Positions 1,625 to 17,724 are shown, counted from the first letter of the stretch. The stretch: 61,787 nt of DNA from a virus (IMGVR_UViG_3300043774_000333:1-61787), one strand, 5' to 3'. Program-made: numbers and translations. Notes: generated from the sequence alone by a model not told the origin.

Positions 1625-3650
1625 GAAAGCTCTTCTTTCGCCTTGGTTGGCACTGATTACTTTTGCGTTATTGTTAGTAGTAAAATTATCAAACCCTTAC
1701 TTGGTTGAATCCGCGAGATTGAAGTTTTATGATTATTTGATGCTCGGTTCGCCGACGCAATCTGAACAAATTGTAACTGTCAATATTGGGGAGAAAGCAA
1801 TTGAGAAATATGGTCAGTGGCCGTTTCCACGTGAGGTCCATGCTCAAATTATTAGCGACATTTATGGTCGAGGGGCTGCTCTTGTTGGCAGCACTATACT
1901 TATGTCTGAGTCTGATCGGATGGGGACTGATCGAATTCTTGCGGATGCCCTAAGTCAGTATCCAGTAGTTCTGAGTCAGACGGTAAGCGATTCTTGTTCT
2001 CGGGCAAGTGCGACAATTCGGAGAACAGGCGTTGCCGTAATCGGCGATGGAGAAGCAACTGAATTTCTTCCTCAATACCCATGCGTTCTAAGTAATGTCT
2101 CAGTTCTTCAAGAAGCCGCAGTCGGTGTTGGGATAACGTCAACCCTACCCGAGACTGATGGGGTTGTAAGGCGAGTTCCTCTTCTATCCCAATCATCAGG
2201 CGAATACTATCCCGCATTTGCTCTAGAGATGCTGCGTGTAGCTGCAGGAGACTCTTCGTATCAAGCCAAGATAAATCAGACTGGGGTTGAAGCATTACGA
2301 ATTCCTTCTTTTGAAACTATAAAAACTGATGAATATGGAAGAACGTTCATCAATCCCAATTACGTATTTCCATCTGTTGAATTAGGTTCTGATATTCCTC
2401 GTCTTGATGGGAAAATTGTAATTCTAGGCGTAACTGCTGCTGGAATTGCGAATCCTGTAGCGACTCCATCAGGTGCGCAACATCCCCACGTCCTTCAGGC
2501 GAGTATACTTGAAACTCTGATAAATGGAGACTCTGTGTCGATTCCTGTTTGGAGTCAACTTGCGGATCTTGCTGCTTTTCTGGGTCTTGCTCTGGCATTG
2601 ATCATTCTCTCGCGTTTTAAATTCTCTATAATTTATATTGCTGTTATTCTCGGTGGATATTTCTATCTGCCTATTTATCTTTTCGCGAGCAAGGGTATTC
2701 TGCTCGATGTAACATTTAACGTATTTGCTATTGCTCTCATCTATATTCATATCTTTACTGCGAAGTATATTTCTGAATATCTACAGAAACAGCAAATTAA
2801 GAAGCAGTTCGGAACCTATCTGTCACCAGATCTCGTTGCTCAGTTGCAAAGACAACCAGAACTTCTGACACTTGGTGGTGACTCTAGAGAACTGTCAATC
2901 ATGTTCACAGACGTTCGTGGTTTTACTACCATCTCGGAACACTACGGTGAAGACGTTCAAGGTCTCACGAAAATTATGAATCGTTACATGACAGTGATGA
3001 CAAGAGCGATCCTTGAGAACAAGGGAACACTAGACAAGTATATCGGTGATGCTCAGATGGCATTCTGGAATGCGCCACTCGATAATAACAAGCATGCGTT
3101 AGATGCAGTAAGAACTGCCTTTCAGATGCTAAAAGATTTGGAGACTTTCAATGACGAAATTAAAGGAGAAGGTGTTCCCGCTTTTGGGATGGGTCTTGGT
3201 ATTAACACTGCCACTGTGGTTGTTGGTAATATGGGCAGCACTCAGCGTTTTGACTATACTTGCTTGGGCGATGGCGTTAATTTGGCTGCTCGTCTGGAAG
3301 GTCAAACCAAGTCTTATGGCGTCAAACTCATCGTCGGACCACAAACTGCCAAATTGGTTGGGGATGTATACCAAGTAGTAGAACTTGACTTGATTGCTGT
3401 TAAGGGCAAGACAGAACCTGCTCGAATTTACACTGCTTTAGAAATCTTTGATCATCCTGGCGAGAAGCAACATGATAAGTTCTTGCAACTATATCGCGAA
3501 GGTCAGTGGGAAATTGCTAAAAAGTTTGCCAACGACTTAAAGAAGTGCTGGCAAGGAGAGTTAAACAATTACTATGACATGATGCTCGAGCGCATGGAGG
3601 GCGAACCTCCTGCTAATTTTGACGGGGTTTATAGAGCCCAGACCAAGTAA
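1599..3650 (+). CDS. CHASE2-domain class III adenylate cyclase
   Basis: A 683-residue membrane protein. An N-terminal membrane segment (about 16-32) precedes a periplasmic CHASE2-like sensor (about 35-315). Three hydrophobic segments follow (about 322-340, 345-365, 368-392), then a cytoplasmic cyclase domain (about 430-610). Visible catalytic features are the metal-binding Asp in FTDVRGFT, DKYIGD with a second Asp, and FDYTCLGDGVNLAARLEG. The Lys in LDKYIGD and the Asp in FDYT are the usual adenine-selecting pair, so ATP to cAMP is expected. DKYIGDAQMAF has Gln where Val is common. It overlaps the curlin-like gene and its 3' end overlaps a small minus-strand gene. A complete signalling enzyme of this type is unusual on a phage. 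Confidence 0.88.
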   Translation: MDTLIQKTKKALLSPWLALITFALLLVVKLSNPYLVESARLKFYDYLMLGSPTQSEQIVTVNIGEKAIEKYGQWPFPREVHAQIISDIYGRGAALVGSTILMSESDRMGTDRILADALSQYPVVLSQTVSDSCSRASATIRRTGVAVIGDGEATEFLPQYPCVLSNVSVLQEAAVGVGITSTLPETDGVVRRVPLLSQSSGEYYPAFALEMLRVAAGDSSYQAKINQTGVEALRIPSFETIKTDEYGRTFINPNYVFPSVELGSDIPRLDGKIVILGVTAAGIANPVATPSGAQHPHVLQASILETLINGDSVSIPVWSQLADLAAFLGLALALIILSRFKFSIIYIAVILGGYFYLPIYLFASKGILLDVTFNVFAIALIYIHIFTAKYISEYLQKQQIKKQFGTYLSPDLVAQLQRQPELLTLGGDSRELSIMFTDVRGFTTISEHYGEDVQGLTKIMNRYMTVMTRAILENKGTLDKYIGDAQMAFWNAPLDNNKHALDAVRTAFQMLKDLETFNDEIKGEGVPAFGMGLGINTATVVVGNMGSTQRFDYTCLGDGVNLAARLEGQTKSYGVKLIVGPQTAKLVGDVYQVVELDLIAVKGKTEPARIYTALEIFDHPGEKQHDKFLQLYREGQWEIAKKFANDLKKCWQGELNNYYDMMLERMEGEPPANFDGVYRAQTK

Positions 3651-4044: not shown

Positions 4045-4073
4045 TTGACAAATGTCTTAAAATAGGGTATAAG
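4045..4073 (+). promoter_or_regulatory. Sigma70-type promoter for the tailoring operon
   Basis: TTGACA (4045-4050), a 17-base spacer and TATAAG (4068-4073), again with GGG before the -10 box. Transcription would start near 4080, ahead of AGGA and the ATG at 4105. No other strong promoter or terminator was seen between here and about 15.1 kb, so this may drive the whole operon. Confidence 0.78.
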
Positions 4074-4104
4074 AGTATGTTGAGTTTGAAAAAAGGATTA
4101 TGTT

Positions 4105-4506
4105 ATGTCTATGCAACTTATGTCACATGCGTTCACTACCACTAGCACCAAGAAGCGCAAGACTTCTAATAAGGGTGTCGCTGCAAGGTATTCCCAGGAT
4201 TGGGTAGAGTATAATAAGCAGATGAAACGTATCGGTTCTACGACCAAGACATTCGATGAGTATGTTGCCTATCGCCAAGGTAATTATAAACCTAAGTTGC
4301 GGGGCACACCTCTCCCTAAATATGAGGTCAGCGACCATCGTCAAAAGTATCCTTCTGGTGATGGTATCGGTGTAAACTATTCTCGTAAGGAACAGATCTA
4401 CACAGGCACACTTATCAAGGGTATCAGTGTTCTCCATAAGAGCAATGCTGTGCCTGTTATCAATGATGAACAAATTTTAGAGATTGCGAAAATGCGCCGT
4501 GGTTAA
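4105..4506 (+). CDS. Hypothetical protein, first gene of the tailoring operon
   Basis: Unrecognised 133-residue basic protein. The N-terminus is Ser/Thr/Lys-rich (TSTKKRKTSNKG); the rest is mixed, with a DEYVAYRQGNYKPKL stretch. No catalytic motif, membrane segment or signal peptide is visible. AGGA upstream of the ATG is a plausible ribosome site, and the sigma70-type promoter lies about 30 bases upstream. The downstream methyltransferase-like frame starts before its stop, so the two are coupled. It could be an unrelated early gene sharing the promoter. Confidence 0.75.
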   Translation: MSMQLMSHAFTTTSTKKRKTSNKGVAARYSQDWVEYNKQMKRIGSTTKTFDEYVAYRQGNYKPKLRGTPLPKYEVSDHRQKYPSGDGIGVNYSRKEQIYTGTLIKGISVLHKSNAVPVINDEQILEIAKMRRG

Positions 4507-5080
4507 TTTTGATGTTGTTTTAAACTGGATGGAATACATCCGTAATAATCCAGATGATGCATACAGATTCTCCGAGAACTTCTGGCCAAGTCAGATCGAG
4601 AGTAAGAAGTGGTTACTCGAACATGTAACTCCCTTGGATAGATCTATCGTAATTTTTGGTGGATGGTATGGAGTTCTCGCGCAGTTTATTGCGCATAAGT
4701 TTCCTGATGCTCAAATTGTAACTACTGATGTAGACTATGGATGCAAAAAAGTATTTGATGCTATCGATGAATGTTATCATGATATCCTCTTTCGTCAGCA
4801 TGACATGCAAAATGGTATGCCGCTTAATATACGTCCCGATCTAGTGATCAACACCAGCAGCGAACATGTAACGCAAGAAGTATATGATGCGTGGTGGGAC
4901 TCTATTCCTAACACGACTAAATATATCGTCCAAGGAAATAATCTAGTTAATCCTGAGCATGTCCGCATTGCCGATAATCTAGAACAATTCTTAACAATCA
5001 ACAATATTAAAAATCCACAATATGCAGGTATGTTGAAGTGCGGACATTTCTATAGATACATGGCAGTGGGTTATAGATGA
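4499..5080 (+). CDS. Methyltransferase-like protein
   Basis: About 193 residues with a Rossmann-like order. IVIFGGWYGVLAQFIA fits the glycine-rich SAM loop, IVTTDVDYGCKK the acidic residue ending strand 2, and DLVINTSSEHV strand 4. This suggests a class I SAM-dependent methyltransferase, though the glycine loop is atypical. Start is uncertain: GTG at 4499 is used; TTG at 4484 and ATG at 4529 are alternatives, and none has a strong ribosome site. It overlaps the gene before it and, as ATGA, the sulfotransferase-like gene after it. A distant counterpart with GCETMYPL lies at 56318-56974. Confidence 0.65.
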   Translation: MVNFDVVLNWMEYIRNNPDDAYRFSENFWPSQIESKKWLLEHVTPLDRSIVIFGGWYGVLAQFIAHKFPDAQIVTTDVDYGCKKVFDAIDECYHDILFRQHDMQNGMPLNIRPDLVINTSSEHVTQEVYDAWWDSIPNTTKYIVQGNNLVNPEHVRIADNLEQFLTINNIKNPQYAGMLKCGHFYRYMAVGYR

Positions 5081-5754
5081 ATAGAGACTTTGTTTTAGTT
5101 TACGGTGAATGGAGAACAGGAACTAATCTTCTTTTGAGTATGTTTAGACAACGAGGATACTTGGACCTAAATGAATTCTATTCTCGGTTTGAACCTCGTC
5201 AAGCAGAAATTCTTAATGACAAACTTTATGACATTCTATGCCAAGAAGTTTTGAAAAAATGCACAATGAAGGTAATGCTTTCTCAAATCGGAGTTGTTGC
5301 CGATAAAAATACCGACTTCTTCACAAAACGGGTTTTGGTTTATAGGCGAGATATCTTTTCTTCAATTATTAGTAGAGTGGTTGCAGAAACTAGACTCAGT
5401 TGGTACCGTTCGACATATGCACCTGAACAACCAGAATTTAATAGTATCCTTACAGTATACAACTTTTTGCAGGTTGCTGAAGATGTAATATCTCATTATA
5501 AAACATTTATCTCTACTGGTAGGCATGAAATATCATTAGACTACGTGGTTAATTATGAAGATGATTTAGTGCCAGTTGCTAGTAATAATCCAACAGATTC
5601 TTTACCCACTGCTAACTATACAGTAAGAAATTTAGAACAATTAAAAACTTTGTTTGATGCTAAGTATTCCTACGATGTGTCCAATATAAATCAATTTTTC
5701 GACAATCTCAGAAAAGAAACCAACAAGGGTGACTTTGAACAATTTATTAACTAA
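5077..5754 (+). CDS. Sulfotransferase-like P-loop protein
   Basis: 225 residues. The N-terminus VYGEWRTGTNLLLSMF fits the 5'-phosphosulfate loop of PAPS-dependent sulfotransferases (usual form PRSGTNLL), and KRVLVYRRDIFSSIISR near 88-104 fits the 3'-phosphate loop with its Arg and Ser. The expected reaction is sulfate transfer from PAPS to a hydroxyl or amine acceptor. The ATG lies within the stop of the methyltransferase-like gene. The length is in range for small sulfotransferases of the Stf0/nod type. The acceptor is unknown. Its position beside radical SAM and carbamoyltransferase genes suggests it decorates the same product. Confidence 0.72.
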   Translation: MNRDFVLVYGEWRTGTNLLLSMFRQRGYLDLNEFYSRFEPRQAEILNDKLYDILCQEVLKKCTMKVMLSQIGVVADKNTDFFTKRVLVYRRDIFSSIISRVVAETRLSWYRSTYAPEQPEFNSILTVYNFLQVAEDVISHYKTFISTGRHEISLDYVVNYEDDLVPVASNNPTDSLPTANYTVRNLEQLKTLFDAKYSYDVSNINQFFDNLRKETNKGDFEQFIN

Positions 5755-5765
5755 TCGGAACCACC

Positions 5766-7055
5766 ATGTTCGAAAATAATAAAAGTATGTGCGCAATACC
5801 TTTTGTGAGTACAATGATTAACACAGATACTACTGTGCGGTATTGTTGTATGGTTAAAGGTCGCGCAAATATTGTTTCGAAAGAGTCGGGTGACGCATAT
5901 ACTTGTCGAGATAATTTCATTGAAGATGCTTGGAACTCAGAAAGTATTCGAGATATTCGAAGAAAAATGATTAATGCTGAATCTATTCCTGGGTGTGCAG
6001 TTTGTTATCAACAAGAAGACGACAGTAAGATGAGCAATCGTCAGCATAGTTTGCGCGAATGGTCACAACGTCTTGGCACAGAAGAACTAAAGCAGATTAT
6101 TGAATCTGCAGGAGAAGCAGATGGGTTTGTTGAATCTGCTCCAGTTTATCTTGACCTGCGTCTAGGCAATTTGTGCAATTTAAAGTGTAGAATGTGCAAC
6201 CCATGGAATAGTAGTCAGATTGTAAAAGAGCACACCGATCTAGTAAATCGTCGATCTGATTATGCTGATGTGTGGCAAAAGACCTTTGGTAAATTTCCAG
6301 AAAAGGTTATGGAGGATCAACCTTGGTTTGACCACAATATTCTTTGGGATCAAGTTATTTCATTGATTCCAACATTGAAAAAAGTTTACATGACAGGTGG
6401 TGAACCCACATTGATTAAAAATAATTTCAAGTTTATGGAAGAATGTATCCGCCAAGGTCGCCAAGATATAACTCTATTCTTTAATACGAATTGCACAAAT
6501 ATTAATCCAAAGTTCTTCGACCTAATTTCTCAATTTGATGCAGTTAATATTAATGCTAGTGTTGATGGTGTCGGCGTAGTAACTGAGTATATTAGAGCGC
6601 CAAGTAATTGGTTGCATGTTTCTAAAAATATTGAAAAATTTGCGCAAATGCCAAATGTGCATCTTGGCATTACTCCAACATTTCAAGTATATAATACATT
6701 TGATGTCGTAAATATTCTGACTTGGGTAGACGATTTGCGCGAGAAATATTCGAAGGATGTGTTTATTGATTTTTTAATCAACCATCATCCCGTGCATCTA
6801 AGTGCACTAATCTTACCTGACGATTTACGCAAAGAAGCAGTGGAACTCATTGAAGATTATAACGAGGCAAATCCAGTCCAGAATGAAATGACCAAAAATT
6901 CTCTTCAAGGCATCGTTGGGTTTTTAAAGAACCCTCGTCTCGAAAATTGGGAAATCATGGTTAGTAGATTTCGTATATATACTAATGCACTTGATGAAGA
7001 GCGCAAAGAAAGCATAACAGTTTTAGATCCTCGTTTGGCAAAATTATATGATTGA
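5766..7055 (+). CDS. Radical SAM protein with N-terminal twitch-like cluster (1)
   Basis: 429 residues. CNLKCRMC at about 136-143 is the CxxxCxxC motif binding the SAM-cleaving 4Fe-4S cluster, and TGGEP near 210 is the SAM-binding GGE motif. The N-terminus carries a second cysteine set (CAIPF at about 9, YCC near 27-28, CAVC near 77-80), with a W-x-S-x-x-x-R-x-I-R element, as in twitch/SPASM auxiliary-cluster domains but placed before the radical SAM barrel. It should perform 5'-deoxyadenosyl-radical chemistry on an unknown substrate. It begins 11 bases after the sulfotransferase-like gene and overlaps the next radical SAM gene by 8. Confidence 0.88.
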   Translation: MFENNKSMCAIPFVSTMINTDTTVRYCCMVKGRANIVSKESGDAYTCRDNFIEDAWNSESIRDIRRKMINAESIPGCAVCYQQEDDSKMSNRQHSLREWSQRLGTEELKQIIESAGEADGFVESAPVYLDLRLGNLCNLKCRMCNPWNSSQIVKEHTDLVNRRSDYADVWQKTFGKFPEKVMEDQPWFDHNILWDQVISLIPTLKKVYMTGGEPTLIKNNFKFMEECIRQGRQDITLFFNTNCTNINPKFFDLISQFDAVNINASVDGVGVVTEYIRAPSNWLHVSKNIEKFAQMPNVHLGITPTFQVYNTFDVVNILTWVDDLREKYSKDVFIDFLINHHPVHLSALILPDDLRKEAVELIEDYNEANPVQNEMTKNSLQGIVGFLKNPRLENWEIMVSRFRIYTNALDEERKESITVLDPRLAKLYD

Positions 7056-8310
7056 TAATAAAAATTTCTGTATCCAACCGTGGATCCATCTTGCAAGTTG
7101 GAATGATGGTAAGGTTCCGCTTTGCTGTGTTGCTTCTCCCGAGGCAAATTTAAACTTCAATGACTCGACACCACAACAAATTTGGAATAGTGAGCAGTTT
7201 AAACGAGCAAGACTGAAGTTTATGAATGGTGAACAACCTCCCCAGTGCAGTTCTTGTTGGAAAGAAGAAGCAAGCGGAATTAAGAGTCACCGTGTTATCG
7301 AGAATGATATGTGGAAGCGCAAGATGGGCGCAGAAAAAATTAATCACATAATTTCTCTTACGAATCCAGATGGTAGCGTGGACTTTAATCCCATCACTCT
7401 CGATTTACGAATCGGTAACACTTGCAACCTGCAGTGTGTTATGTGTCGCCCTCGTGATAGCAGTAAGTGGTTGAATGACAGCAAAAAACTTGCAGAAACT
7501 CTTACAAGTCCTGGGGCAAAAGGTGATTGGGATTTTAAATCAAAAAGCATTACTAACACTGACTGTTTTGAGTGGTTTGAAAAACTAGAAACCCAAGAAG
7601 CACTAGATGAGTTTATGGGTGATATTCGTCATATTATTTTCGGCGGTGGAGAACCTTTGCTGATCAAAGGACACGAAAGATTTATAACAAAACTTGTAGA
7701 AAGCGGACACAGTAAGAATATTGAACTTCGCTATCACACAAACGGAACTCAACTGAGCGAGAAGTTTATTGACCTCTGGAGTCAATTCAAACTGGTTGAA
7801 TTGATGGTAAGTCTTGATGATTGGGGTCAGAGAAATGAGTTTGTTCGTTGGCCAGCATCATGGGAAGTAATCTCAAAGAATCTAGATCGGTTGGACGAAA
7901 CGGCAGATAATATCGTTGTTAATATTCTCGCCACTGTCCACGCGATGACCATATATAATCTACCTGATTTCGCGCAAGCAATTATAGATCGTAAATGGAA
8001 GAAAATCTGTAAACGCAATGAGGGACTATTTTCCGTAGGTACTACCCATTGGCCACAATATCTCAGCACAACAGTTTTACCACAAAATGTTAAAGACATC
8101 ATCAACAAGCGGTGGGAAGAATATCCTGATCTGGTAAATCATCCGCGATGGATAAACCGAATCAAGTATCAGTTTGAGTACATGAACAGCAGAGATGATT
8201 CAGATAAGTTTCCAGATTTGATCAACTATATAGATACTCTTGAACTTATGCGACCAATTAAATTTTCAGAAGTATATGGTGATTACTACAAATTATTGAA
8301 AGGTATTTAA
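7048..8310 (+). CDS. Radical SAM protein with N-terminal twitch-like cluster (2)
   Basis: 420 residues, paralogous to its upstream neighbour. CNLQCVMC lies at about 125-132 and GGGEP near 200. The N-terminal cysteines (FCIQPW, LCCVA, CSSCW) and the WNSEQFKRAR element repeat the auxiliary-cluster layout. The ATG lies 5 bases before the previous stop, so translation is coupled. Divergence outside the motifs suggests it acts on a different substrate or position rather than being a recent duplicate. Confidence 0.88.
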   Translation: MIDNKNFCIQPWIHLASWNDGKVPLCCVASPEANLNFNDSTPQQIWNSEQFKRARLKFMNGEQPPQCSSCWKEEASGIKSHRVIENDMWKRKMGAEKINHIISLTNPDGSVDFNPITLDLRIGNTCNLQCVMCRPRDSSKWLNDSKKLAETLTSPGAKGDWDFKSKSITNTDCFEWFEKLETQEALDEFMGDIRHIIFGGGEPLLIKGHERFITKLVESGHSKNIELRYHTNGTQLSEKFIDLWSQFKLVELMVSLDDWGQRNEFVRWPASWEVISKNLDRLDETADNIVVNILATVHAMTIYNLPDFAQAIIDRKWKKICKRNEGLFSVGTTHWPQYLSTTVLPQNVKDIINKRWEEYPDLVNHPRWINRIKYQFEYMNSRDDSDKFPDLINYIDTLELMRPIKFSEVYGDYYKLLKGI

Positions 8311-8311
8311 T

Positions 8312-9259
8312 ATGGCAACACTCTTGAGACTGGTTTTCCTAGATGATTGCGGTAAAGAACACGAATTACATTTTGCATTGTATGCCACGGATCTTGTTAA
8401 TCGATGGGTTGAGATTACAAAGAAAAATCAACAAACTCCCGATTCTCGTATTAATGCTCGGTTCACTAATATCTCATACAATCAGATTTCTAAAGTTAGA
8501 ACTAGACTGACCGATTGCCTCACCAGAATTAATTCTGTTTACGATGAACCGCTTCCCTTGTATACAGAAATCTCGGAACTTACTACACCTGAACTCAATT
8601 ATTTACATGAAGAGTTTGAGCGGTATGGTGATAGATTTGAGGATTTGATGCGAACGACCGATTGGTGGTCGCAAGAGTTACATGAAGACTTTTTGGAACT
8701 GAACGAAATTATCCATCTTCATGAGGATTTGCTGTATGTTAAGAAGGGCGGGTTTCCGAACATGGCGCTTCTTTATGATTATTATCCGCAGGGATTGCAT
8801 CTTCCTATCCTCGAGCGGGATAAACTCTGGTTAACACCAACATTACAATGGGGGGAAGTTTATCTTGGTTATAACACCCTTGGTAAAGATTGGTTTAAGG
8901 TTGTCGCCGACAAAGACTTAGAAGTGATCGAACGCGATCAAGTAAGACCACAGGAAAGATTCGCAGCAGAGACTTGGATTAATTTTGGTCCAGATAGTGA
9001 TGGTTGGGAAATAAGACAACTGGAAAAATTCTATGACCAGTTACCAGAAAATCTACAAAAGAAAGTTCCTATTGACGACCTCAATAAACTGAATTATGGT
9101 AGATTTAAACTTGGAAAAATTATAATCGATGATTATTTTGTATCTCGCTACGGTGGAACAATTGCGGATTACAGCGTAAAAGCAGGAAGCGTAAAGCGAC
9201 ATTGGGACGAACATGCGTTTAGCACTTTCGTAGAACTGAAAGAAATTCAATTTTTATGA
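8312..9259 (+). CDS. Unknown 315-aa operon protein
   Basis: Not recognised. The protein is acidic and aromatic-rich, with no signal peptide or membrane segment. Residues about 1-110 look helical. The middle contains YDYYPQGLHLPI and LTPTLQWGEVYLGYNTLGKDW, which look like a beta-rich pocket. AAAGG upstream of the ATG is a reasonable ribosome site. The gene sits tightly between two radical SAM genes and overlaps the third by 4 bases, so it probably belongs to the same pathway, perhaps as a carrier or substrate-binding partner. That role is inference from position only. Confidence 0.75.
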   Translation: MATLLRLVFLDDCGKEHELHFALYATDLVNRWVEITKKNQQTPDSRINARFTNISYNQISKVRTRLTDCLTRINSVYDEPLPLYTEISELTTPELNYLHEEFERYGDRFEDLMRTTDWWSQELHEDFLELNEIIHLHEDLLYVKKGGFPNMALLYDYYPQGLHLPILERDKLWLTPTLQWGEVYLGYNTLGKDWFKVVADKDLEVIERDQVRPQERFAAETWINFGPDSDGWEIRQLEKFYDQLPENLQKKVPIDDLNKLNYGRFKLGKIIIDDYFVSRYGGTIADYSVKAGSVKRHWDEHAFSTFVELKEIQFL

Positions 9260-10209
9260 CGGTTAAGAAATTAATAAAAATACAGCAAACAGAAAATGTA
9301 ATGTCGCTCACGTGGGTGATTAACAACATATGTAATAATAGTTGTGCATATTGTCCACCCATTTTAAATAATGGTAAAAACCACCATTATGATTGGGATA
9401 AAGCAAAGGAGTTTGTGACAAGATTATTTGATCACTACCCGAAGGTACATTGTTCTATCAGTGGCGGCGAACCGACAATGAGTCCATTCTTTAAAGAATT
9501 GGTAGACATTTTCTATTCGAGTGGCAACACCGTTGGTATTACTACTAATGGTGTAAGGACTGTTCGATATTGGGAAGAAGTTGCACCAAAACTAAGTTAC
9601 ATTTGTTTTAGTTATCATCCCAGTCAAGAAGTCCCTAATTTTTTAGAAAAAGTAAAGGCATCTTCGAAACAAACTTTCTCTACTGTTAGGGTCATGATGG
9701 ATTCTAGATATTGGGACAAAGCGTATGAAATGTATCAGCGTTGCTGCGAAATTCCTGAGATTGCAGTAGAAGCAGTAAGGATTCTTCCTGAAATAGCAGG
9801 TGCAACAAACATTGGAGAAACCTATACACCTGAGCAGGAAAGTATTCTAATGACAATTCCAAGAAAAGAAATGATTGTTAATCCGTTAGAGGTTAATCCT
9901 GGTCATAGACTTTCTTCTATACGATCTGATTTTTATTTCGACGATGGTTCAGTAGAATATGGGTCGACGCCGAACAAATATATTAATGAAGGTGATAATA
10001 AGTTTGCTGGATGGTATTGTGCAGCAGGATTAGAAAGTTTGTGTATCTCTTGGTCTGGAGACGTAAAGATTGCAAATTGTCTTCAAGGTGGAACTAAATT
10101 TCATATCAACGACCATGCGGATTACCAACTTCCAACGAAAGGGGTTATTTGCACTCAGAAACTTTGCTTTTGTGGAACAGATTTCATGCTAAGCAAAGAA
10201 AAGAGATGA
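9256..10209 (+). CDS. Radical SAM protein with C-terminal cysteine cluster
   Basis: 317 residues of a different architecture from its neighbours. CNNSCAYC lies at about 26-33 near the N-terminus, SGGEP at about 68-72, and a C-terminal set (WYCAAG, LCISW, NCLQGG, ICTQKLCFC) looks like a SPASM-type auxiliary-cluster domain. This is the classic layout of peptide- or sugar-modifying radical SAM enzymes. ATGA overlaps couple it to the 315-aa gene before it and the oxygenase after it. Confidence 0.85.
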   Translation: MTVKKLIKIQQTENVMSLTWVINNICNNSCAYCPPILNNGKNHHYDWDKAKEFVTRLFDHYPKVHCSISGGEPTMSPFFKELVDIFYSSGNTVGITTNGVRTVRYWEEVAPKLSYICFSYHPSQEVPNFLEKVKASSKQTFSTVRVMMDSRYWDKAYEMYQRCCEIPEIAVEAVRILPEIAGATNIGETYTPEQESILMTIPRKEMIVNPLEVNPGHRLSSIRSDFYFDDGSVEYGSTPNKYINEGDNKFAGWYCAAGLESLCISWSGDVKIANCLQGGTKFHINDHADYQLPTKGVICTQKLCFCGTDFMLSKEKR

Positions 10210-10889
10210 TTGTGGTTAACACAGAACTAATCGACTTTCTTACCCAAAACAAAAAGAAGCAATGGAATTACCCTGATACTATTCCGACTAATCTGTGGGA
10301 AACAGATTGGCCTTGGTCGCAAGTAAACGCATCAGGGACACACAACTACGATGAAATTATATCAGAGTTATCTGCTGTTAATGATCTTTTTGTGGAACAT
10401 AGAGCAAAAGATAAGATTGGAAGTTATGGGCACGAGGGTTGGTATTCCCTGACTGTCCACGGTATTGATTATAACAAAACTGAAAATTATGATCGGTATG
10501 GATTTAACAGCGAAGAAGAAGCAAACTATAATTGGACTTCTGTTTGCGATAAGTTGCCATTGACAAAAAATCTAATAGATTCGCTACCATTTAAAGACTA
10601 TGGTAGAGTTCGTATCATGAGGATGAGTCCTCGTGGATATATTATGCCACATACAGACGGTATCGGAAGAATCTTTGGACCGTTTAATTTTGCGATTAAT
10701 AATCCAGAAGGTTGTGAGTTTGTGATCGAAGGGCATGGTGTTGTTCCGTTTAAACAAGGTTCTGGTTTTTTACTTGATATTGGTAAGAAACATGCTATCA
10801 TAAACGATAGTGATGAGTATCGTTATCATATTATTATTCACGGTAAACTTACTGCAAACCCCTCCGAACTGTTACGAGCAGTATTATGA
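10206..10889 (+). CDS. Aspartyl/arginyl hydroxylase-like 2OG-Fe(II) oxygenase
   Basis: 227 residues from the ATG at 10206, which overlaps the previous TGA; the open frame extends further upstream without support. MPHTDGIGRIFGPFNFAIN supplies the HxD pair, and KHAIINDSDEYRYHIIIHG supplies a distal His and the Arg that would bind 2-oxoglutarate, in the order of the Asp_Arg_Hydrox family. It would hydroxylate a protein side chain or small molecule using Fe(II), O2 and 2-oxoglutarate. Its place between two radical SAM genes suggests it acts on the same product. Confidence 0.75.
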   Translation: MIVVNTELIDFLTQNKKKQWNYPDTIPTNLWETDWPWSQVNASGTHNYDEIISELSAVNDLFVEHRAKDKIGSYGHEGWYSLTVHGIDYNKTENYDRYGFNSEEEANYNWTSVCDKLPLTKNLIDSLPFKDYGRVRIMRMSPRGYIMPHTDGIGRIFGPFNFAINNPEGCEFVIEGHGVVPFKQGSGFLLDIGKKHAIINDSDEYRYHIIIHGKLTANPSELLRAVL

Positions 10890-12241
10890 ATATCGTACAT
10901 GGTAAATTTGTCAACGATGTAGATTTGGCAATTTGTATTTTTCCGTCTGAGTCAATTAAAAATAAAGAACTCGCAGCAAGAATGGTTGAGTTTACTAAGT
11001 TTTATGCGCTCAGGTTTAACCAACTTGCGAGGCGCGAAAATACATTACCAATTTTAGAATGTGACAGTATCGATGATGGTATGTCAAAGTATCATGGAAC
11101 ATATAAGAATATCTTGTTTATGGCGGCAGGTGTTCGCATTTATGACATGTCTATCCTTTTTGATATCAGAGAAGAAATACTTTCGAGTCCCAACTACATG
11201 GCGTTCGGGCACATCTTAGAATGGAAAGAAGATTGGTATGAGTTACATCATCAGTTTGTGCTAGTTAATAGTGACAACTGGATTAAATGTAGTAAACCAA
11301 GTTATGGTGGTTGGGGGCAGAAAATTGAAGAACTGCCTGTCATAGAAAGAAGCGAAGAAAATTTCCATGATGATTATACACCGTTGTGGATTCGCTATAC
11401 TGGTGAATATAAACTACAGAAGCACACCAAACAGGGGTGGAATTACTTTAATGCTTCTAGTCGGGGCAAGTTTCAAATTGGCAACTGGAATGATACAATA
11501 CGATCCAAGCGGACATATTATTACCCAGAGGATAGAGGTGATGAACTATTACAATCACTTAAAGAATTACAAAATTGTGGAGTTACCAATCCGAACCAAG
11601 TTCGTCTAATTAATATTCTTCGAAACGTTTCTGATCAAATTTGGATTCTCAATAGCGAAAATATGAAGATTGAGTTTAATAATGAACAATATTCTTCTGC
11701 TGCGTTTCCCGCTGCAGGATTCAAGTTTTTAGAAATTTTGTATAAAGGTAAACTCGAGCAAGATGGCAAAATTGTGATATATGATTTCAATCCCAAAAGC
11801 ATTCAGTGGATTGAAACTCTAATGCACAGCAATAAAATGCCGCTGGAATTGATGAAAGAGTATACCCATAAACAAACCTTTAAGTGTCTTGGCTGTGATG
11901 TTTTTACGAAATCGGGAGAATTTACTAAAGAGTTTCTGGGCAGTTATCAACGAACTGTTTCGTATTTCGGTGGAGAACAAAACTTTAACAAATTGATTGA
12001 AGAATTTAGAAAAAGTAACGTTGTTTTTGTTCAGTGTGATTTATTTAATTCCCCCGAAACCCTTTGCGCGCATTTATCGGAAAATGGGTTGCTTAATATC
12101 TCCAATATATTTTGCACAGATTTCAGCAATGGATATTATGGTCTAGAAGAAACAGAAACCAGATATAACAGTTTTATTAAATTGTTACCAGAAAATACTC
12201 GAGTCATAGGTTTTGGTGCAAAATGTGAGACATTGATTTGA
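10886..12241 (+). CDS. Unknown 451-aa operon protein
   Basis: Not recognised. Residues about 1-170 include ILFMAAGVRIYD and AFGHILEWKEDWYELHHQFVLVN, an arrangement that resembles nucleotide-sugar-type folds but has no clear DxD motif. Residues about 285-451 contain KIVIYDFNPKSIQWIETL, which could be a Rossmann strand-loop, so a two-domain enzyme is possible. No membrane segment. The ATG overlaps the oxygenase stop (ATGA). A 24-base gap and a strong GAGGAGG site for the small peptide gene follow it. Confidence 0.72.
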   Translation: MNIVHGKFVNDVDLAICIFPSESIKNKELAARMVEFTKFYALRFNQLARRENTLPILECDSIDDGMSKYHGTYKNILFMAAGVRIYDMSILFDIREEILSSPNYMAFGHILEWKEDWYELHHQFVLVNSDNWIKCSKPSYGGWGQKIEELPVIERSEENFHDDYTPLWIRYTGEYKLQKHTKQGWNYFNASSRGKFQIGNWNDTIRSKRTYYYPEDRGDELLQSLKELQNCGVTNPNQVRLINILRNVSDQIWILNSENMKIEFNNEQYSSAAFPAAGFKFLEILYKGKLEQDGKIVIYDFNPKSIQWIETLMHSNKMPLELMKEYTHKQTFKCLGCDVFTKSGEFTKEFLGSYQRTVSYFGGEQNFNKLIEEFRKSNVVFVQCDLFNSPETLCAHLSENGLLNISNIFCTDFSNGYYGLEETETRYNSFIKLLPENTRVIGFGAKCETLI

Positions 12242-12265
12242 TTCAAAAACGAGGAGGGTGGGAAA

Positions 12266-12358
12266 ATGTTCCGCAAAATAATTAAATGGTATAATGCATA
12301 TAAACTACGAAGAAGAATCAATAAGTTGCGAAAAAGCGATCCATTTATCTATGACTGA
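12266..12358 (+). CDS. Small basic peptide (30 aa) before a radical SAM gene
   Basis: The ATG at 12266 follows GAGGAGG (12251-12257), one of the best ribosome sites in this operon. The 30-residue product begins MFRKIIKWYNAYKLRRR and ends SDPFIYD. It carries about ten Lys/Arg and an amphipathic helix pattern. Its stop lies 5 bases inside the following radical SAM gene, whose ATG is at 12351. It could be a leader peptide for coupled translation, a small membrane-binding protein, or a substrate of the neighbouring enzymes. None of these is proven. Confidence 0.6.
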   Translation: MFRKIIKWYNAYKLRRRINKLRKSDPFIYD

Positions 12359-13682
12359 TAAACAATACGACCTTAACGATAATCCTTCTTTTTGTATGTT
12401 GGGGTTACTGCACACTTATATCTCTCCCGATGGTAATGTGATGCCATGTTGCGTTAGTGATTCGACAAAATCTCCTCTTGGAAATATCAATGAAATTTCA
12501 TCCTGGAATGAAATTTGGAATGGCGAGAAATACAAAGAATTTCGTCGCATGATGATAGCAGGTGAAAAAAATCCATTATGCTCGTTTTGTTATGATACTG
12601 AAAAATTTTCGGATATCAGTTTACGAAAATGGAGAAATATACAATTCGCAGAAGATTATGATTACTACATGAGTCAACTGTTGCAGACAGGCGAGATGAA
12701 AACAAGCAAACTGAAGTATATCGATTTTAGATTTTCTAATCATTGCAATCAGGCATGTATTACTTGCGGGCATTCTCTTAGTTCTAGTTGGTATGATTTA
12801 TTGCAAAAATTAAACATTCCAACCAATGCACCGAAATTTATTGAACCAACAGATGATAAAATTGCATATCAATTAATAGATGATAATTTGGATAGTATTA
12901 CTAATATATATTTTGCAGGCGGCGAACCCATGCTTTCGAAGTATCATTGGTATACTTTGGATAAACTAATTGAGTTAGATAGAGCAAAAGAAATCGATCT
13001 TGAGTATTCAACGAATTGTAGCACTCTGAAGTATAAAGATAAAGACGTTCTTGAGTACTGGAAGATGTTTAAATCTGTTACGATTATGGCAAGCATTGAT
13101 GATGTTGGCGAGAGATTCAATTACATCCGCTGGCCAGCAAAATGGGATAGTGTTTCACAAAATCTAAAGAGAATACATGATTGTTTTGAAGAGAAGAACA
13201 ATGGAAAAGATCCATCACATAAACTTTGTTTTGCTCCCGTATTAAGTGCATTTAATCTACATAGATTGCAAGAAATAGTTGACGAATTTATTTCTATTGG
13301 AATATACCAAGAAAGTAACAAATACCATCCCAAGTTTGAATATTTCCTGTTTAGTAATATTATACGGGCACCAATTCATTTAAACGTAAAGAGTATACCA
13401 GAACAACATTGGCAATATGTTGTAAGAAAATTAGATGATTTTGAGAACTGGTATTTAGAATCTGTTATACCAGAGGCAACAAACCCCTTTAAAAAACTTT
13501 TTATTGCGAACCAGATAAAAGCAATTAAAGAAATGCGTAAAATCGATCAAAAAGATATGGATTTCTTGCAGTCTGACGGTCCTGAATACTTGGAATGTCT
13601 CGAAGTCTACTCAAAACTTGATGCTGCGAGAAATACTGATTTCATGAAGACTTTCCCAGAACTTGAATGGTTATATAAGTGA
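12351..13682 (+). CDS. Radical SAM protein with N-terminal twitch-like cluster (3)
   Basis: 443 residues from the ATG at 12351; an upstream in-frame ATG at 12294 lacks a ribosome site and would bury the 30-aa gene. CNQACITC lies at about 132-139 and AGGEP near 190. The N-terminal pattern (FCMLGLL, PCCVSDSTKSPLGNI, CSFCYD) matches the auxiliary-cluster layout of the two radical SAM genes at 5.8-8.3 kb. Its first codons overlap the small peptide gene, and its TGA overlaps the carbamoyltransferase GTG. Confidence 0.88.
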   Translation: MTDKQYDLNDNPSFCMLGLLHTYISPDGNVMPCCVSDSTKSPLGNINEISSWNEIWNGEKYKEFRRMMIAGEKNPLCSFCYDTEKFSDISLRKWRNIQFAEDYDYYMSQLLQTGEMKTSKLKYIDFRFSNHCNQACITCGHSLSSSWYDLLQKLNIPTNAPKFIEPTDDKIAYQLIDDNLDSITNIYFAGGEPMLSKYHWYTLDKLIELDRAKEIDLEYSTNCSTLKYKDKDVLEYWKMFKSVTIMASIDDVGERFNYIRWPAKWDSVSQNLKRIHDCFEEKNNGKDPSHKLCFAPVLSAFNLHRLQEIVDEFISIGIYQESNKYHPKFEYFLFSNIIRAPIHLNVKSIPEQHWQYVVRKLDDFENWYLESVIPEATNPFKKLFIANQIKAIKEMRKIDQKDMDFLQSDGPEYLECLEVYSKLDAARNTDFMKTFPELEWLYK

Positions 13683-15106
13683 TTGAATGGGGAATCTCTG
13701 CTGGAGCACATGACGCTGCTCTGACTGTTGTCAGCGGCAGAGAAATCCTGTTCGCTTCAAGCGCAGAGCGTTATAGCGGGGTAAAGAATGATAAGTATCT
13801 GAATCTAGATCTTATCGACGCAGCATTAAAGTTTGGTGAACCAGAAAAAATCCACTGGTATGAGAAACCAAAACTACGAGCAATGCGTAGACTACTTTCA
13901 GGACAAGGACTAGTTCGTTTCAGCGTTCGGCGATATCTAGAGGATGAATTTGGACTCCAAGTTCCTGTTGAATTTGCATCCCACCATGAGTCGCATGCTG
14001 CTGCTGGTTATTATACTTCTAATTTCTACACTGCAACTGCATTGGTAATTGATGCCATCGGCGAATTCGATACAGCATCTATTTGGTTGTGCGCTGATCA
14101 AACTCTCAAGAAAAAGTGGAGTATGGATTATCCAAAATCACTCGGATTATTTTATTCCGCTATAACAGACAGAGTTGGATTGAAACCAAACGAAGATGAG
14201 TATATCCTGATGGGTATGGCAGCGTATGGTAATTCTAATAAGCACTACTGGGACATGCGCGAACTATATGAGCGAACTAATTTGCATCGTGGTTGCAAGT
14301 GGTGGTTAAAAAACGAAGATCCTGATCATTTTGACCTTGCTGCTTCTGCTCAGAAGATTTATGAAGAAGAATTCGATAAACTACTCCGTCGTGCCAAGGA
14401 GACAGACCCTCTACAAAATAACCTAGTGTTATCAGGGGGTTGCGCACTTAACTGCTCAGCGAATCATATCGCGTTGAAATACTTCAAGAATGTTTGGATC
14501 ATTCCGAATCCAGGAGATGCTGGTAGTTCTCTTGGTGCTATTGCTGCAAACAACCGTAGAAAACTTAATTGGCAAGGTCCATATCTCGGCGAAAATATTG
14601 ATGCTGAATATCCTGTAGAAAATCTATTGACTTCTTTGCTTAAAGAGGGTATAGTTGGAGTTGCTAGTGGAAAGGCGGAGTTTGGTCCGAGAGCATTTGG
14701 TAACCGAAGCCTTCTCGCCGATCCAACTAGACCAGATATTAAGGACAGAGTAAATGCAATCAAGCGCAGACAAAAGTTTAGACCATTCGCCCCAGTTATC
14801 CTTGAGCAACATGCAGCAGAGTATTTTGACATGCCAGTTGAAGTATCCCCTTACATGCAGTTTACTGCAAGATGTAAATTTCCTTCAGAGTTCCCTGCTA
14901 TCATTCACGTTGATGGCACATCTCGCGTCCAAACTGTAAACGAACAGCAGCATCCAGGATTGTTTGAATTGTTGACAAGATGGTATGAAGAAACTGGTTG
15001 TCCCATGTTACTCAACACCAGTCTGAACATAAAAGGGTTTCCGATGGTAAATGATGAAAAAGATGCTGCAATGTTCCAAAACATCTATAAAGTGAAAGTA
15101 TTTTAA
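13679..15106 (+). CDS. NodU/CmcH-type carbamoyltransferase
   Basis: 475 residues from a GTG that overlaps the previous stop as GTGA. The N-terminal Kae1-like domain shows GISAGAHDAALTVV, ASHHESHAAAGYY near 100 (metal-binding histidines), DAIGEFDTAS and VLSGGCALNCSAN near 250. The C-terminal domain has GKAEFGPRAFGNRSLL near 330-345. These are the signature segments of O-carbamoyltransferases using carbamoyl phosphate and ATP. It is shorter than the usual 550-600 residues but both domains are present. Family members modify sugars, antibiotics and, in some phages, hydroxymethylated bases; the acceptor here is unknown. Confidence 0.88.
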   Translation: MIEWGISAGAHDAALTVVSGREILFASSAERYSGVKNDKYLNLDLIDAALKFGEPEKIHWYEKPKLRAMRRLLSGQGLVRFSVRRYLEDEFGLQVPVEFASHHESHAAAGYYTSNFYTATALVIDAIGEFDTASIWLCADQTLKKKWSMDYPKSLGLFYSAITDRVGLKPNEDEYILMGMAAYGNSNKHYWDMRELYERTNLHRGCKWWLKNEDPDHFDLAASAQKIYEEEFDKLLRRAKETDPLQNNLVLSGGCALNCSANHIALKYFKNVWIIPNPGDAGSSLGAIAANNRRKLNWQGPYLGENIDAEYPVENLLTSLLKEGIVGVASGKAEFGPRAFGNRSLLADPTRPDIKDRVNAIKRRQKFRPFAPVILEQHAAEYFDMPVEVSPYMQFTARCKFPSEFPAIIHVDGTSRVQTVNEQQHPGLFELLTRWYEETGCPMLLNTSLNIKGFPMVNDEKDAAMFQNIYKVKVF

Positions 15107-15112
15107 TAAATA
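15105..15112 (+). promoter_or_regulatory. Late-promoter-like motif AATAAATA
   Basis: One mismatch from T4 late TATAAATA. It overlaps the carbamoyltransferase stop and ends 5 bases before the next ATG, which would place +1 on the A of that ATG. Confidence 0.4.
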
Positions 15113-15117
15113 GATCT

Positions 15118-15402
15118 ATGGCAGAGATACTCAAATTTCCTGATAAGTTTTATGGGAAACGACTATACCGAATACCGTTGTATTCGGATATGGACATTGA
15201 TATTGTCTTGTTTTGTGTTAATGCATTTGGTGAAACAGATAATCGTGTAATTATTGACGATTTAATTAAGATGGATCCAGTTGATGTCATAAAATGTATT
15301 GACTTTTCGCTTGAATCAGAGTATATTTCTAATACTACGAAAGCGCATATTCAATGCATTCGTAAGTCAATTGAGGAAGTCCCCTTTAAACTTGAGAACT
15401 AA
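15118..15402 (+). CDS. Hypothetical protein (94 aa)
   Basis: Unrecognised small protein beginning MAEILKFPDKFYGK, acidic and helical in its second half (DDLIKMDPVDVIKCIDFSLESEY). No Shine-Dalgarno site precedes the ATG, but a late-type AATAAATA lies 5 bases upstream, so a leaderless late transcript is possible. It is followed closely by the 179-aa gene. Confidence 0.65.
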   Translation: MAEILKFPDKFYGKRLYRIPLYSDMDIDIVLFCVNAFGETDNRVIIDDLIKMDPVDVIKCIDFSLESEYISNTTKAHIQCIRKSIEEVPFKLEN

Positions 15403-15408
15403 TATATT

Positions 15409-15948
15409 ATGAATATCTTTTACCTTGACCGCGACGTCAAAACTTGTGCTACATATCACAATGATAAGCACGTTGTTAAAATGATTTTAGAGTATGCCCA
15501 ATTACTATCAACCGCACATCGTATGCTTGATGGTGACGAATATATTGATGCCTCTTCGGGGCGGCGAATTAAACGTTGGCGTCTCAAAAATGAGAGTATG
15601 GAAAACATACTTTACAAGGCATCACACATTAACCATCCCAGTGCTATATGGGTTCGACAGTCTAATAATAATTACAATTGGTTGATGTGCTTGCTTCAGG
15701 ATCTTTTACAGGAATATACGCATCGCTATGGTAAGATTCATGCGACTGATCGACTAGTATACTGGTTGCGAAAACCACCTGCTAATATTCCTGTTGGTTA
15801 TTTTACACAACCAACTCCTGCCATGCCCGACGAGTACAAAGATCCTTGTTCAGTTGTTTCGTATCGCAACTATTATATCGGTGCAAAAAAAACTATGGCA
15901 AAGTGGAAAAAACGTCCTATTCCAGAGTGGTGGAGCGACACAGTTTAA
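15409..15948 (+). CDS. Conserved phage hypothetical protein (179 aa)
   Basis: The N-terminus NIFYLDRDVKTCATYHNDKHVVKMILEY followed by AQLLSTAHRML is a pattern I associate with a conserved family of unknown function in tailed phages. The rest contains LLQEYTHRYGKIHAT and a Trp-rich end. Histidines and a cysteine in the first 25 residues could bind metal. No recognised enzyme motif. It is followed by a late-type motif (15947-15954) and a strong terminator, so it closes this plus-strand block. Confidence 0.7.
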   Translation: MNIFYLDRDVKTCATYHNDKHVVKMILEYAQLLSTAHRMLDGDEYIDASSGRRIKRWRLKNESMENILYKASHINHPSAIWVRQSNNNYNWLMCLLQDLLQEYTHRYGKIHATDRLVYWLRKPPANIPVGYFTQPTPAMPDEYKDPCSVVSYRNYYIGAKKTMAKWKKRPIPEWWSDTV

Positions 15949-16015
15949 TAAATACTTACATGAGAACAAAAGAACCAATTCCCATTTCAGATACCGAACT
16001 CCCTCGGTAACAAAC

Positions 16016-16047
16016 GGCGACTCCACCTATGTGGCGTCGCCTTTTTT
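16016..16047 (+). terminator. Rho-independent terminator before phoH
   Basis: GGCGACTCCAC (16016-16026) pairs with GTGGCGTCGCC (16031-16041) around a short loop with one mismatch, followed by TTTTTT (16042-16047). It separates the upstream genes from phoH. Confidence 0.88.
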
Positions 16048-16078
16048 GTATTCACTCTAGTAAGATTAAGGACTGTTC

Positions 16079-16831
16079 ATGACGAGAAGAAAAAACAATC
16101 TCCAAGTTGTATCGAATTCTGAACCAAAGGTAACAATTGAAAAGAGTAAACTGTGCAAAGTTAAATATGAGGATCTACGAAATATTCAACCAAAAACACA
16201 GAATCAACGACTCTTCTTCGACCTTTACAATCAACAGTCCACTGCAATGCTACTACATGGTGTAGCAGGAACAGGTAAAACATTTATTTCCATGTATAAA
16301 GCACTTGAAGAAGTTCTGGACCCAACAACAGATTATGAACGTCTTGTTGTTGTGCGTTCAGCAGTACCATCAAGAGATATCGGACACCTTCCAGGTGACG
16401 AGAAGGAAAAAACAGAGGTCTATACTTTACCATATGTTGAGATCTGTGATGACTTGTTAAATCACATCCAACCCTTCCAGCGCATGCAGGAACAAAAGAC
16501 CGTTCATTTCCTAATCACCTCGTTCGTGCGTGGTATCACACTTGATAATTCAGTGATCATTGTTGACGAATGTCAGAACATGACTGACATGGAACTCAAC
16601 TCTATAATGACACGTATCGGTAAAAACTCCAAGATTATCTTCTGTGGGGACTTCCGCCAGACTGACCTAAATAAAAAGAACGACATGTCAGGATTGCAAA
16701 AGTTTATCGCGATTGCTGAGATGATGCCATCATTTAAGACGGTTGAATTTTCCGTGAATGATATTGTCAGGTCGAAACTTGTCAAGGAATATATCCTTGC
16801 TCGTTTAGAATACGAAGAAAAACATAATTAG
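16079..16831 (+). CDS. phoH: PhoH-like P-loop ATPase
   Basis: 250 residues. Walker A GVAGTGKT lies at about 61-68, Walker B VIIVDECQN near 160, and IFCGDFRQTD is a sensor-like segment. The layout and length match the PhoH-like proteins common in marine phages. Biochemical role in infection is unresolved; RNA-linked helicase or nuclease functions have been proposed for the family. AAGGA precedes the ATG. The downstream promoter at 16835 begins right after its stop, so the exonuclease gene is independently transcribed. Confidence 0.93.
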   Translation: MTRRKNNLQVVSNSEPKVTIEKSKLCKVKYEDLRNIQPKTQNQRLFFDLYNQQSTAMLLHGVAGTGKTFISMYKALEEVLDPTTDYERLVVVRSAVPSRDIGHLPGDEKEKTEVYTLPYVEICDDLLNHIQPFQRMQEQKTVHFLITSFVRGITLDNSVIIVDECQNMTDMELNSIMTRIGKNSKIIFCGDFRQTDLNKKNDMSGLQKFIAIAEMMPSFKTVEFSVNDIVRSKLVKEYILARLEYEEKHN

Positions 16832-16834
16832 GGC

Positions 16835-16863
16835 TTGACTTTTCTGAAAAATTATAGTATAAT
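16835..16863 (+). promoter_or_regulatory. Sigma70-type promoter for the exonuclease gene
   Basis: TTGACT (16835-16840), 17 bases, then TATAAT (16858-16863). Standard spacing puts +1 at about 16870, exactly the first ATG of the next gene. Confidence 0.82.
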
Positions 16864-16869
16864 GGATTT

Positions 16870-17553
16870 ATGATGTTTGAAACGATATATGAATATGAAG
16901 ATTTTGCCCAATCAACTACGAGCGAAGATGGTGGTAGAGTTTATGTAAATGCCAGTGGCGTTGCATATCCCTCTGCCACCACCGTTCTTTCTGTTCTCTC
17001 TCGCGACTCTATCGCTGCTTGGCGAAAGCGTGTTGGCGAAGAAGAAGCAAATAAAATCTCAAGCAAAGCATCGACTCGTGGAACTAAGATTCACACGCTA
17101 ACTGAGACGTTTCTCAAGAACGAAAACGTCAGTGACAAGATTGATGAAGTCAAGGCATCTCTGCTTGATGTTGAAATGTTCAATAAGTTTAAACCTATCC
17201 TAGAACCAATCAGCAACATCCATTGTCAGGAACTTGCACTTTACAGTGATCATCTGCGTATGGCAGGTCGTGTTGACTGTATTGCTGAGTATAATGGTAA
17301 ACGTGCTGTTATCGATTTTAAGACTTCCAACAAGTCTAAGTCAAAATCATATATCGAGAGTTACTTCATGCAGACAGCAGCATATGCTATCATGTATGAA
17401 GAACGTACTGGTATTCCTGTTCCATGGTTGGTAATTCTAATCGCAGTTGAAGATGATGTTCCTCAGGTATTCATCGAAAAGCGTGATGACTGGGTGAAGA
17501 AACTTCTTCGCACTCGCGACTTTTATGAAAATGGGTATTATACCAGTGAGTGA
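16870..17553 (+). CDS. PD-(D/E)XK exonuclease (RecB/Cas4-like)
   Basis: 227 residues. GTKIHTLTE near 75 supplies the conserved His, GRVDCIAEYNGKRAVIDFKTS near 130-150 gives the D...DxK core, and a C-terminal YESYFMQTAAYA-like helix follows, as in RecB-family nucleases of T4-like marine phages. It probably acts in DNA recombination or host DNA degradation. No ribosome site is visible; the promoter's +1 falls on the ATG, so the mRNA may be leaderless. The next ATG, one codon on, is an equally plausible start. It overlaps the 64-aa Zn-ribbon gene by 29 bases. Confidence 0.85.
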   Translation: MMFETIYEYEDFAQSTTSEDGGRVYVNASGVAYPSATTVLSVLSRDSIAAWRKRVGEEEANKISSKASTRGTKIHTLTETFLKNENVSDKIDEVKASLLDVEMFNKFKPILEPISNIHCQELALYSDHLRMAGRVDCIAEYNGKRAVIDFKTSNKSKSKSYIESYFMQTAAYAIMYEERTGIPVPWLVILIAVEDDVPQVFIEKRDDWVKKLLRTRDFYENGYYTSE

Positions 17554-17719
17554 ACTGTCCGAACAACGGATGGAAATTTGTAGGCAGTGTGAATTTTTTA
17601 AAGCAAAACTGTGTATGAAATGTGGTTGTCTCATGCCAGCAAAAACTAAACTTAATCGCGCATCCTGTCCCATTGGTAAGTGGGGTTCAGTAGGAAAAAA
17701 ACTTCCTTGGGAAGCATAA
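17525..17719 (+). CDS. Small Cys-rich zinc-ribbon-like protein
   Basis: 64 residues. Cysteines in CRQCEFF, LCMKCGCLM and ASCPIGKW make a compact CxxC...CxxCxC...C set that likely binds zinc. The motif order (CRQCEFFKAKLCMKCGC, then PAKTKL and CPIGKW) is one I associate with a small protein conserved in marine T4-like phages beside this nuclease. The frame begins inside the exonuclease gene; ATG at 17531 is an alternative. Function unknown, possibly a nuclease partner. Confidence 0.78.
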   Translation: MKMGIIPVSELSEQRMEICRQCEFFKAKLCMKCGCLMPAKTKLNRASCPIGKWGSVGKKLPWEA

Positions 17720-17724
17720 AACAC

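Follow-up and report, generated by a model that had tools for sequence, protein, structure and literature searches.

PqqA and the mycofactocin peptide MftA are short precursors with constant C termini that feed cofactor pathways resembling those of ribosomally synthesized and posttranslationally modified peptides (RiPPs). Typical RiPP precursors keep their leader and vary their core, and the precursors of pyrroloquinoline quinone (PQQ) and mycofactocin are exceptions. Among phages, cassettes of radical S-adenosylmethionine (SAM) enzymes, carbamoyltransferases, and hydroxylases have been published for pelagimyophages and cyanomyophages, without a substrate (PMC7029224, PMC3037559). A metagenomic phage-associated carbamoyltransferase system that modifies 5-hydroxymethylcytosine has also been described, with thymidylate synthase as its co-occurring partner (PMC8670742). 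Here, we describe a gene island in one IMG/VR virus contig, IMGVR_UViG_3300043774_000333 (61,787 nucleotides, analyzed at full length and called the window below), which combines radical SAM enzymes, a TobZ-class O-carbamoyltransferase, and the gene for a 30-residue basic peptide. Like the pelagimyophage and cyanomyophage regions, one of which lies near phoH, the island belongs to T4-like phages and has variable cassettes with radical SAM enzymes, carbamoyltransferases, and hydroxylases; those accounts differ in that they list gene classes and, in the portions available, mention neither a peptide-carbamoyltransferase pairing nor constant arrays of radical SAM proteins with an N-terminal twitch domain (N-twitch) nor a link to Bdellovibrionota (PMC7029224, PMC3037559).

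The island is a compressed operon (4105-15106) behind a sigma-70-type promoter. Four different query genes were used to collect about 130 related loci, which merged into 98 contigs; these show the island to be a site of cassette exchange in HTVC008M-like phages of the T4 type, with a host-type promoter in front. Its constant elements are a methyltransferase-like gene, several N-twitch radical SAM genes, a basic peptide ending in DPFIY(D/K), and the O-carbamoyltransferase. Most complete islands share their left genes (the 4105 type and the methyltransferase-like gene) and their right genes (the carbamoyltransferase, a 94-aa protein, and a pyrimidine-dimer glycosylase-like protein). The interiors vary, with two to eight N-twitch radical SAM genes and swapped modules that include SGNH-like proteins, a further radical SAM type (f25), other extra radical SAM enzymes, a sugar epimerase, and the module found at 8312-12241 of the window, in which an oxygenase is joined to the F51 and F48 proteins. 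The window and contig 3300042465_004901 are 89 percent identical over 5731-12241 and 71-73 percent identical over 13680-20922. Against 3300036944_000550, the flanks match at 85-94 percent and the interior is missing except for 12247-12358, which is the peptide gene. Module phylogeny differs from flank phylogeny. The dN/dS ratios of the island genes (∼0.03-0.20) indicate purifying selection and, therefore, working genes.

Contig comparison exposed a 30-codon frame, MFRKIIKWYNAYKLRRRINKLRKSDPFIYD, that the initial annotation had overlooked and that overlaps, at its stop, the following gene's start. Its ribosome-binding site scores -11.8 kcal/mol, the best of 281 island ATGs, of which about 1 in 281 lies at or below -8. 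Across relatives, the end of the peptide is written with all four Pro codons, both Phe codons, three Ile codons, and three stops. Because the sequences differ at synonymous positions and each of the three stop codons occurs, what is conserved is the protein and not the DNA, and a role for the motif as a DNA element was rejected on this codon-level variation. On this evidence and that of the pairing described below, the peptide gene is real and functionally linked, and the ribosome site and codon-level conservation indicate that it is probably translated. The following radical SAM gene, placed at 12294 in the initial annotation by its longest frame, is present, with its real start at 12351.

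Related peptides are basic, have ∼28 to 40 residues, and end in DPFIY(D/K). Neither the peptide nor its motif was found in the family libraries or the literature searched, and tblastn of named phages with one peptide as the query gave no match. An amphipathic helix was considered and rejected, as the signal was not above that of shuffled sequences. Two variants were seen: in a single-cell marine virus, DPYIYEE immediately precedes the carbamoyltransferase, and a form ending in DPFIYNH follows the carbamoyltransferase (∼15204 in L390/L391) in islands that carry the window's 8312-12241 module.

The peptide is paired almost one to one with the carbamoyltransferase. Among loci fetched by criteria other than the peptide, it lies near 64 of 66 carbamoyltransferases, a count that, like the others given here, does not represent independent events, as the contigs are often close relatives. 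One of the two exceptions is a locus cut short upstream whose siblings have the peptide, and the other is the distant phage C48C1. When all fetched phages were searched with the loose pattern D-x-F-[IVLM]-[YFWH]-x-stop, virtually everything recovered was a DPFIY peptide, with one in each island; each of eight long phage records holds exactly one copy, and the reversed-pattern control found none. When the collection of viral contigs was scanned blindly with the back-translated motif, there were at least 161 matches. Among the matches listed, 158 are small basic peptides; a carbamoyltransferase lies no more than 5 kb from 139 of these and immediately follows 104. DPFIY invariance within this set holds by construction, and the unbiased support is the 64/66 count and the loose pattern search. 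Seventeen of the 19 long records from the scan carry an N-twitch radical SAM protein above the curated cutoff, with up to 19 matches. A tree of the carbamoyltransferases is consistent with the pairing having arisen once but does not prove it. In Bdellovibrionota, the motif was rejected as a candidate: four matches in 241 genomes were not above the reversed-pattern control, and none resembles the peptide. One phage (L233, G615), with 15 N-twitch matches, carries the carbamoyltransferase-peptide unit twice, once on each strand and each time with a DPFIYD peptide of its own. In L009 (MH319727.1, 2585-3904), a gene adjoining the peptide, carbamoyltransferase, and N-twitch radical SAM genes resembles an amidinotransferase-like gene beside N-twitch radical SAM genes in L136 (Bdellovibrionales).

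Such tight pairing could mean that the carbamoyltransferase has the peptide as a subunit, whether accessory, anchoring, or regulatory, and acts on some other substrate. It follows the carbamoyltransferase (64/66) more closely than it does any radical SAM gene, is strongly basic (mean net charge, ∼+7), and in most loci lies directly before the carbamoyltransferase gene, often with overlapping stop and start. In several islands, however, it precedes an SGNH-like, radical SAM, or methyltransferase gene, and it was not seen at the loci of the other carbamoyltransferase lineages examined (Pelagibacter, Synechococcus, and C48C1). We consider a subunit role unlikely.

The four radical SAM enzymes named in the initial annotation all retain intact CxxxCxxC and GGE motifs. 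As it had proposed, three carry the auxiliary-cluster region before the barrel; they exceed the curated cutoff (170 bits) of the NCBIfam N-terminal twitch radical SAM model NF033640 (scores in Table 1). The fourth (9256) falls below that cutoff and has extra cysteines toward its C terminus. Across nine N-twitch sequences, C34, C53, C96, C99, C151, C155, and C158 are invariant, accounting for the auxiliary cluster and the CxxxCxxC of the barrel, and the N-terminal domain resembles the auxiliary-cluster domain of BtrN. A viperin-like defense function (PADLOC pVip) was rejected, as the best score was 41 bits against a cutoff of 180 and the PADLOC matches span only the generic barrel. The PqqA and MftA pathways are similar in having a ∼30-residue peptide with a constant, Tyr-containing C-terminal stretch and radical SAM enzymes with auxiliary clusters. 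The present locus differs in its carbamoyltransferase, its oxygenase, its multiple N-twitch enzymes, and its swapped, phage-borne setting, and an NCBIfam search gave no equivalog-level match of the island radical SAM proteins to PQQ or mycofactocin maturases. In a Bacteriovoracaceae genome, eight N-twitch genes stand nearly in tandem with hardly any other tailoring enzyme (L135, 6043-18039). In one phage, G007 (L079), the N-twitch cluster lies at 56-65 kb and the peptide-carbamoyltransferase unit lies at 171 kb; because the two are so far apart there, they can separate.

Genome context, which the initial annotation had named as a check, showed that the methyltransferase-like, N-twitch, f25, f49, oxygenase, and 10886 (F51) genes are co-conserved in distant marine phages and in part in Bdellovibrionota and are therefore not neighbors by chance. 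The oxygenase-F51 pair recurs in other phages with F51 identities of 26-48 percent, and a marine group keeps a fixed order (c4, c4, f49 radical SAM, f25 radical SAM, methyltransferase, oxygenase, F51, N-twitch radical SAM, f49 radical SAM). Among the Bdellovibrionota sampled, 31 of 291 have a member of the methyltransferase family, as do 5 of 299 genomes from the phylum to which a Nitratireductor genome belongs. In the majority of the best Bdellovibrionota loci, it is accompanied by N-twitch, f25, and f49 radical SAM genes, a DGDN-motif protein, and family 2 glycosyltransferases. The DPFIY peptide is absent from the marine phage group (L398-L416) and from the Bdellovibrionota clusters, which argues for two overlapping units, a wider one of radical SAM, methyltransferase, and oxygenase genes and a nearly inseparable peptide-carbamoyltransferase pair. 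By its gene content, this phage combines the two.

Beside methyltransferase/radical SAM clusters, a family 2 glycosyltransferase has a tail of many KIYWLPGKxxRxxRxxYYK-type repeats, and a separate small protein consists only of such repeats (L138, 677-2602; L162, 10324-10776); they are possibly a radical SAM substrate or a membrane anchor. The Bdellovibrionota clusters L179, L180, and L167 also encode small proteins with twin-arginine-like signals, membrane protein pairs, and a QueC/asparagine-synthase-like enzyme.

We tentatively propose that the island encodes a peptide-linked tailoring pathway in which the peptide is the substrate or scaffold, a reading that we hold to be a good possibility short of a probable one. 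The peptide would be the ribosomally made substrate or carrier; its C-terminal DPFIYD, or a group assembled there, would be altered by the radical SAM enzymes and, in this phage, by the Asp/Asn-hydroxylase-like oxygenase; the carbamoyltransferase would cap a hydroxyl; and the final decoration would differ between phage lineages through the modules swapped in. The promoter, being of host type, points to a product with a role inside infected cells and not solely in the virion. In a fuller form, for which our confidence is lower, the invariant-DPFIY peptide may be a carrier or core on which N-twitch arrays, hydroxylases, and methyl-, carbamoyl-, and other transferases build a lineage-specific group, swappable cassettes varying the product and relatives of the radical SAM and methyltransferase genes occurring in Bdellovibrionota. 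As at RiPP loci, a short precursor-like gene lies among modifying enzymes. The initial annotation had favored host metabolites, phage DNA precursors, or a signaling molecule; because the constant elements of the exchange locus include a peptide paired nearly one to one with the carbamoyltransferase, the likely substrate class changes.

Several observations weigh against the peptide as substrate or scaffold. Its end is constant and the rest varies, the reverse of the conserved leader and variable core of RiPP precursors. Family searches of the window's island proteins found no precursor-recognition domain, peptidase, or exporter, although recognition domains are easily missed. The radical SAM set occurs without peptide and carbamoyltransferase in the marine phages and without the peptide in Bdellovibrionota, so that the peptide is tied more closely to the carbamoyltransferase than to the radical SAM genes, and 2 of the 19 peptide-bearing long records lack N-twitch radical SAM genes. 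The best-matching solved O-carbamoyltransferases act on small molecules. The peptide is a concrete, testable partner for the large orphan N-twitch family and for the substrate-less phage carbamoyltransferases that have been listed for years. Were it the substrate, it would follow that lytic aquatic phages produce modified peptides in the cells they infect and that cassette exchange diversifies these products; were it not, the near one-to-one pairing would still define a new family of small proteins linked to carbamoyl transfer.

Cassette swapping is also a feature of antigen loci, and the island might instead tailor the surface polysaccharide or lipid of the infected cell, in serotype conversion or superinfection exclusion, with the peptide not being the substrate. 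A carbamoyltransferase of the TobZ/NodU class would suit this role, as would the sugar epimerase and glycosyltransferase-like proteins in some relatives' islands and the family 2 glycosyltransferases in related Bdellovibrionota clusters. Published parallels are the hypervariable lipopolysaccharide (LPS)-type regions of pelagimyophages with radical SAM cassettes (PMC7029224) and the cyanophage LPS clusters near phoH (PMC3037559). In contrast, family searches of the island proteins of the window recognized neither a glycosyltransferase nor a sugar-nucleotide enzyme, and this reading does not explain why a peptide with a constant end accompanies the carbamoyltransferase nearly one to one. Surface tailoring thus seems to us somewhat unlikely, if a serious alternative.

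Hypermodification of DNA or nucleotides, which the initial annotation had included as modification of phage DNA precursors, would have its precedent in the 5-hydroxymethylcytosine enzyme, which has the same carbamoyltransferase Pfam families (PMC8670742). The thymidylate synthase partner of that system was not found here: no thymidylate-synthase-family gene is present in nine phage records (including records of 150, 171, and 181 kb, which may be incomplete), which makes DNA carbamoylation unlikely. We judge this explanation very improbable.

The identities of the carbamoyltransferase and of the oxygenase, both as named initially, are firm. The carbamoyltransferase (13679) matches PF16861 (4e-52) and PF02543 (9e-37) with intact metal and adenylate motifs. 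It shares its fold family and catalytic motifs with the O-carbamoyltransferases TobZ, NovN, and GdmN, and differs from them in being shorter (475 aa), in being tied to a small peptide, and in having an unassigned acceptor. The oxygenase belongs to PF05118, a family that includes Asp/Asn hydroxylases, and weakly matches solved beta-hydroxylases. The methyltransferase assignment of the 4484 protein fared less well: G51, W52, G54, and D73 are invariant in 25 homologues, but profile matches are weak (Pfam MTS, E = 0.056; a solved putative methyltransferase, E = 0.016), and the protein may be a class I methyltransferase. For the proposed sulfotransferase (5077), the RTGT and RRDxxxS motifs are present and are the sole support; searches of Pfam, PHROGs, NCBIfam, and PDB yielded nothing convincing, and none of the fetched phage relatives has a homologue.

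The 8312 protein had been left unnamed. Its predicted fold reached a predicted local distance difference test (pLDDT) score of 85 with 24 homologues, versus 36 from the single sequence. Cyclophilins filled the top rows throughout a comparison with a second-look aligner (Z, 9-10 over ∼134 residues; root mean square deviation, ∼3.2), and Foldseek gave no PDB match with an E value below 0.001. The invariant His and Glu residues sit in a helical insertion of the predicted structure. In marine loci, relatives of this protein directly precede the peptide and carbamoyltransferase genes. A cyclophilin-like protein beside a peptide with an invariant Asp-Pro is suggestive, and nothing more.

All reading frames and overlaps described initially for the island are present (Table 1), and the evidence supports its description as a tailoring operon carried by a phage, with an early-type promoter and no assigned product. 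The 4105 protein was considered as a RiPP precursor and rejected, since it matches its own PHROG family (27048) and is missing from some islands.

Table 1. Promoter, genes, and ribosome-binding site of the island, with the right flank gene; positions are those of the window
Feature	Position	Strand	Basis or remark
Sigma-70-type promoter TTGACA-N17-TATAAG	4045..4073	+	Sequence; TTGACA 4045-4050, 17 nt, TATAAG 4068-4073
First gene, fixed left flank, PHROG 27048, function unassigned	4105..4506	+	PHROG match
Class I methyltransferase-like protein	4484..5080	+	Start probably GTG 4499; constant left element; shared with Bdellovibrionota clusters
Sulfotransferase-like protein	5077..5754	+	Motifs only; found only in this window
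N-twitch radical SAM protein	5766..7055	+	NF033640, 350.8 bits
N-twitch radical SAM protein	7048..8310	+	NF033640, 357.4 bits
F48/F82 family protein	8312..9259	+	Predicted cyclophilin-like barrel with helical insertion; N96, H99, N131, H135, E138 invariant
Radical SAM protein, C-terminal cysteine region, f49 type	9256..10209	+	
Aspartyl/asparaginyl beta-hydroxylase-like 2-oxoglutarate oxygenase	10206..10889	+	PF05118, E 1e-10
F51 protein, function unassigned, conserved oxygenase partner	10886..12241	+	Recurrence in distant phages
Ribosome-binding site GAGGAGGG, strongest of the island	12251..12258	+	
30-aa peptide gene MFRKIIKWYNAYKLRRRINKLRKSDPFIYD	12266..12358	+	
N-twitch radical SAM protein	12351..13682	+	NF033640, 327.5 bits; true start overlaps peptide stop
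O-carbamoyltransferase, TobZ/NodU class, fixed right element	13679..15106	+	Pfam domains, motifs
Fixed right flank gene, 94 aa	15118..15402	+	

Promoter-like matches are no commoner in this DNA than in shuffled sequence. The promoter named in the initial annotation is nevertheless borne out by relatives, in which hexamers and spacing are kept while the spacer sequence has diverged. Family searches found gp32, gp59, late-transcription coactivator, and PhoH genes in the window, which is therefore a fragment of a T4-like myovirus. Upstream of the island (170-3650), the window encodes a curlin-like repeat protein and a CHASE2-type adenylate/guanylate cyclase, and its left end is similar to a part of Pelagibacter phage HTVC008M in which curli genes and a cyclase are annotated. 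A two-piece (permuted) transfer-messenger RNA of alphaproteobacterial type, with the tag ANDNVAFALAA, lies at 17721-18165, upstream of the late coactivator gene, an arrangement published for phage Melnitz (PMC9004378).

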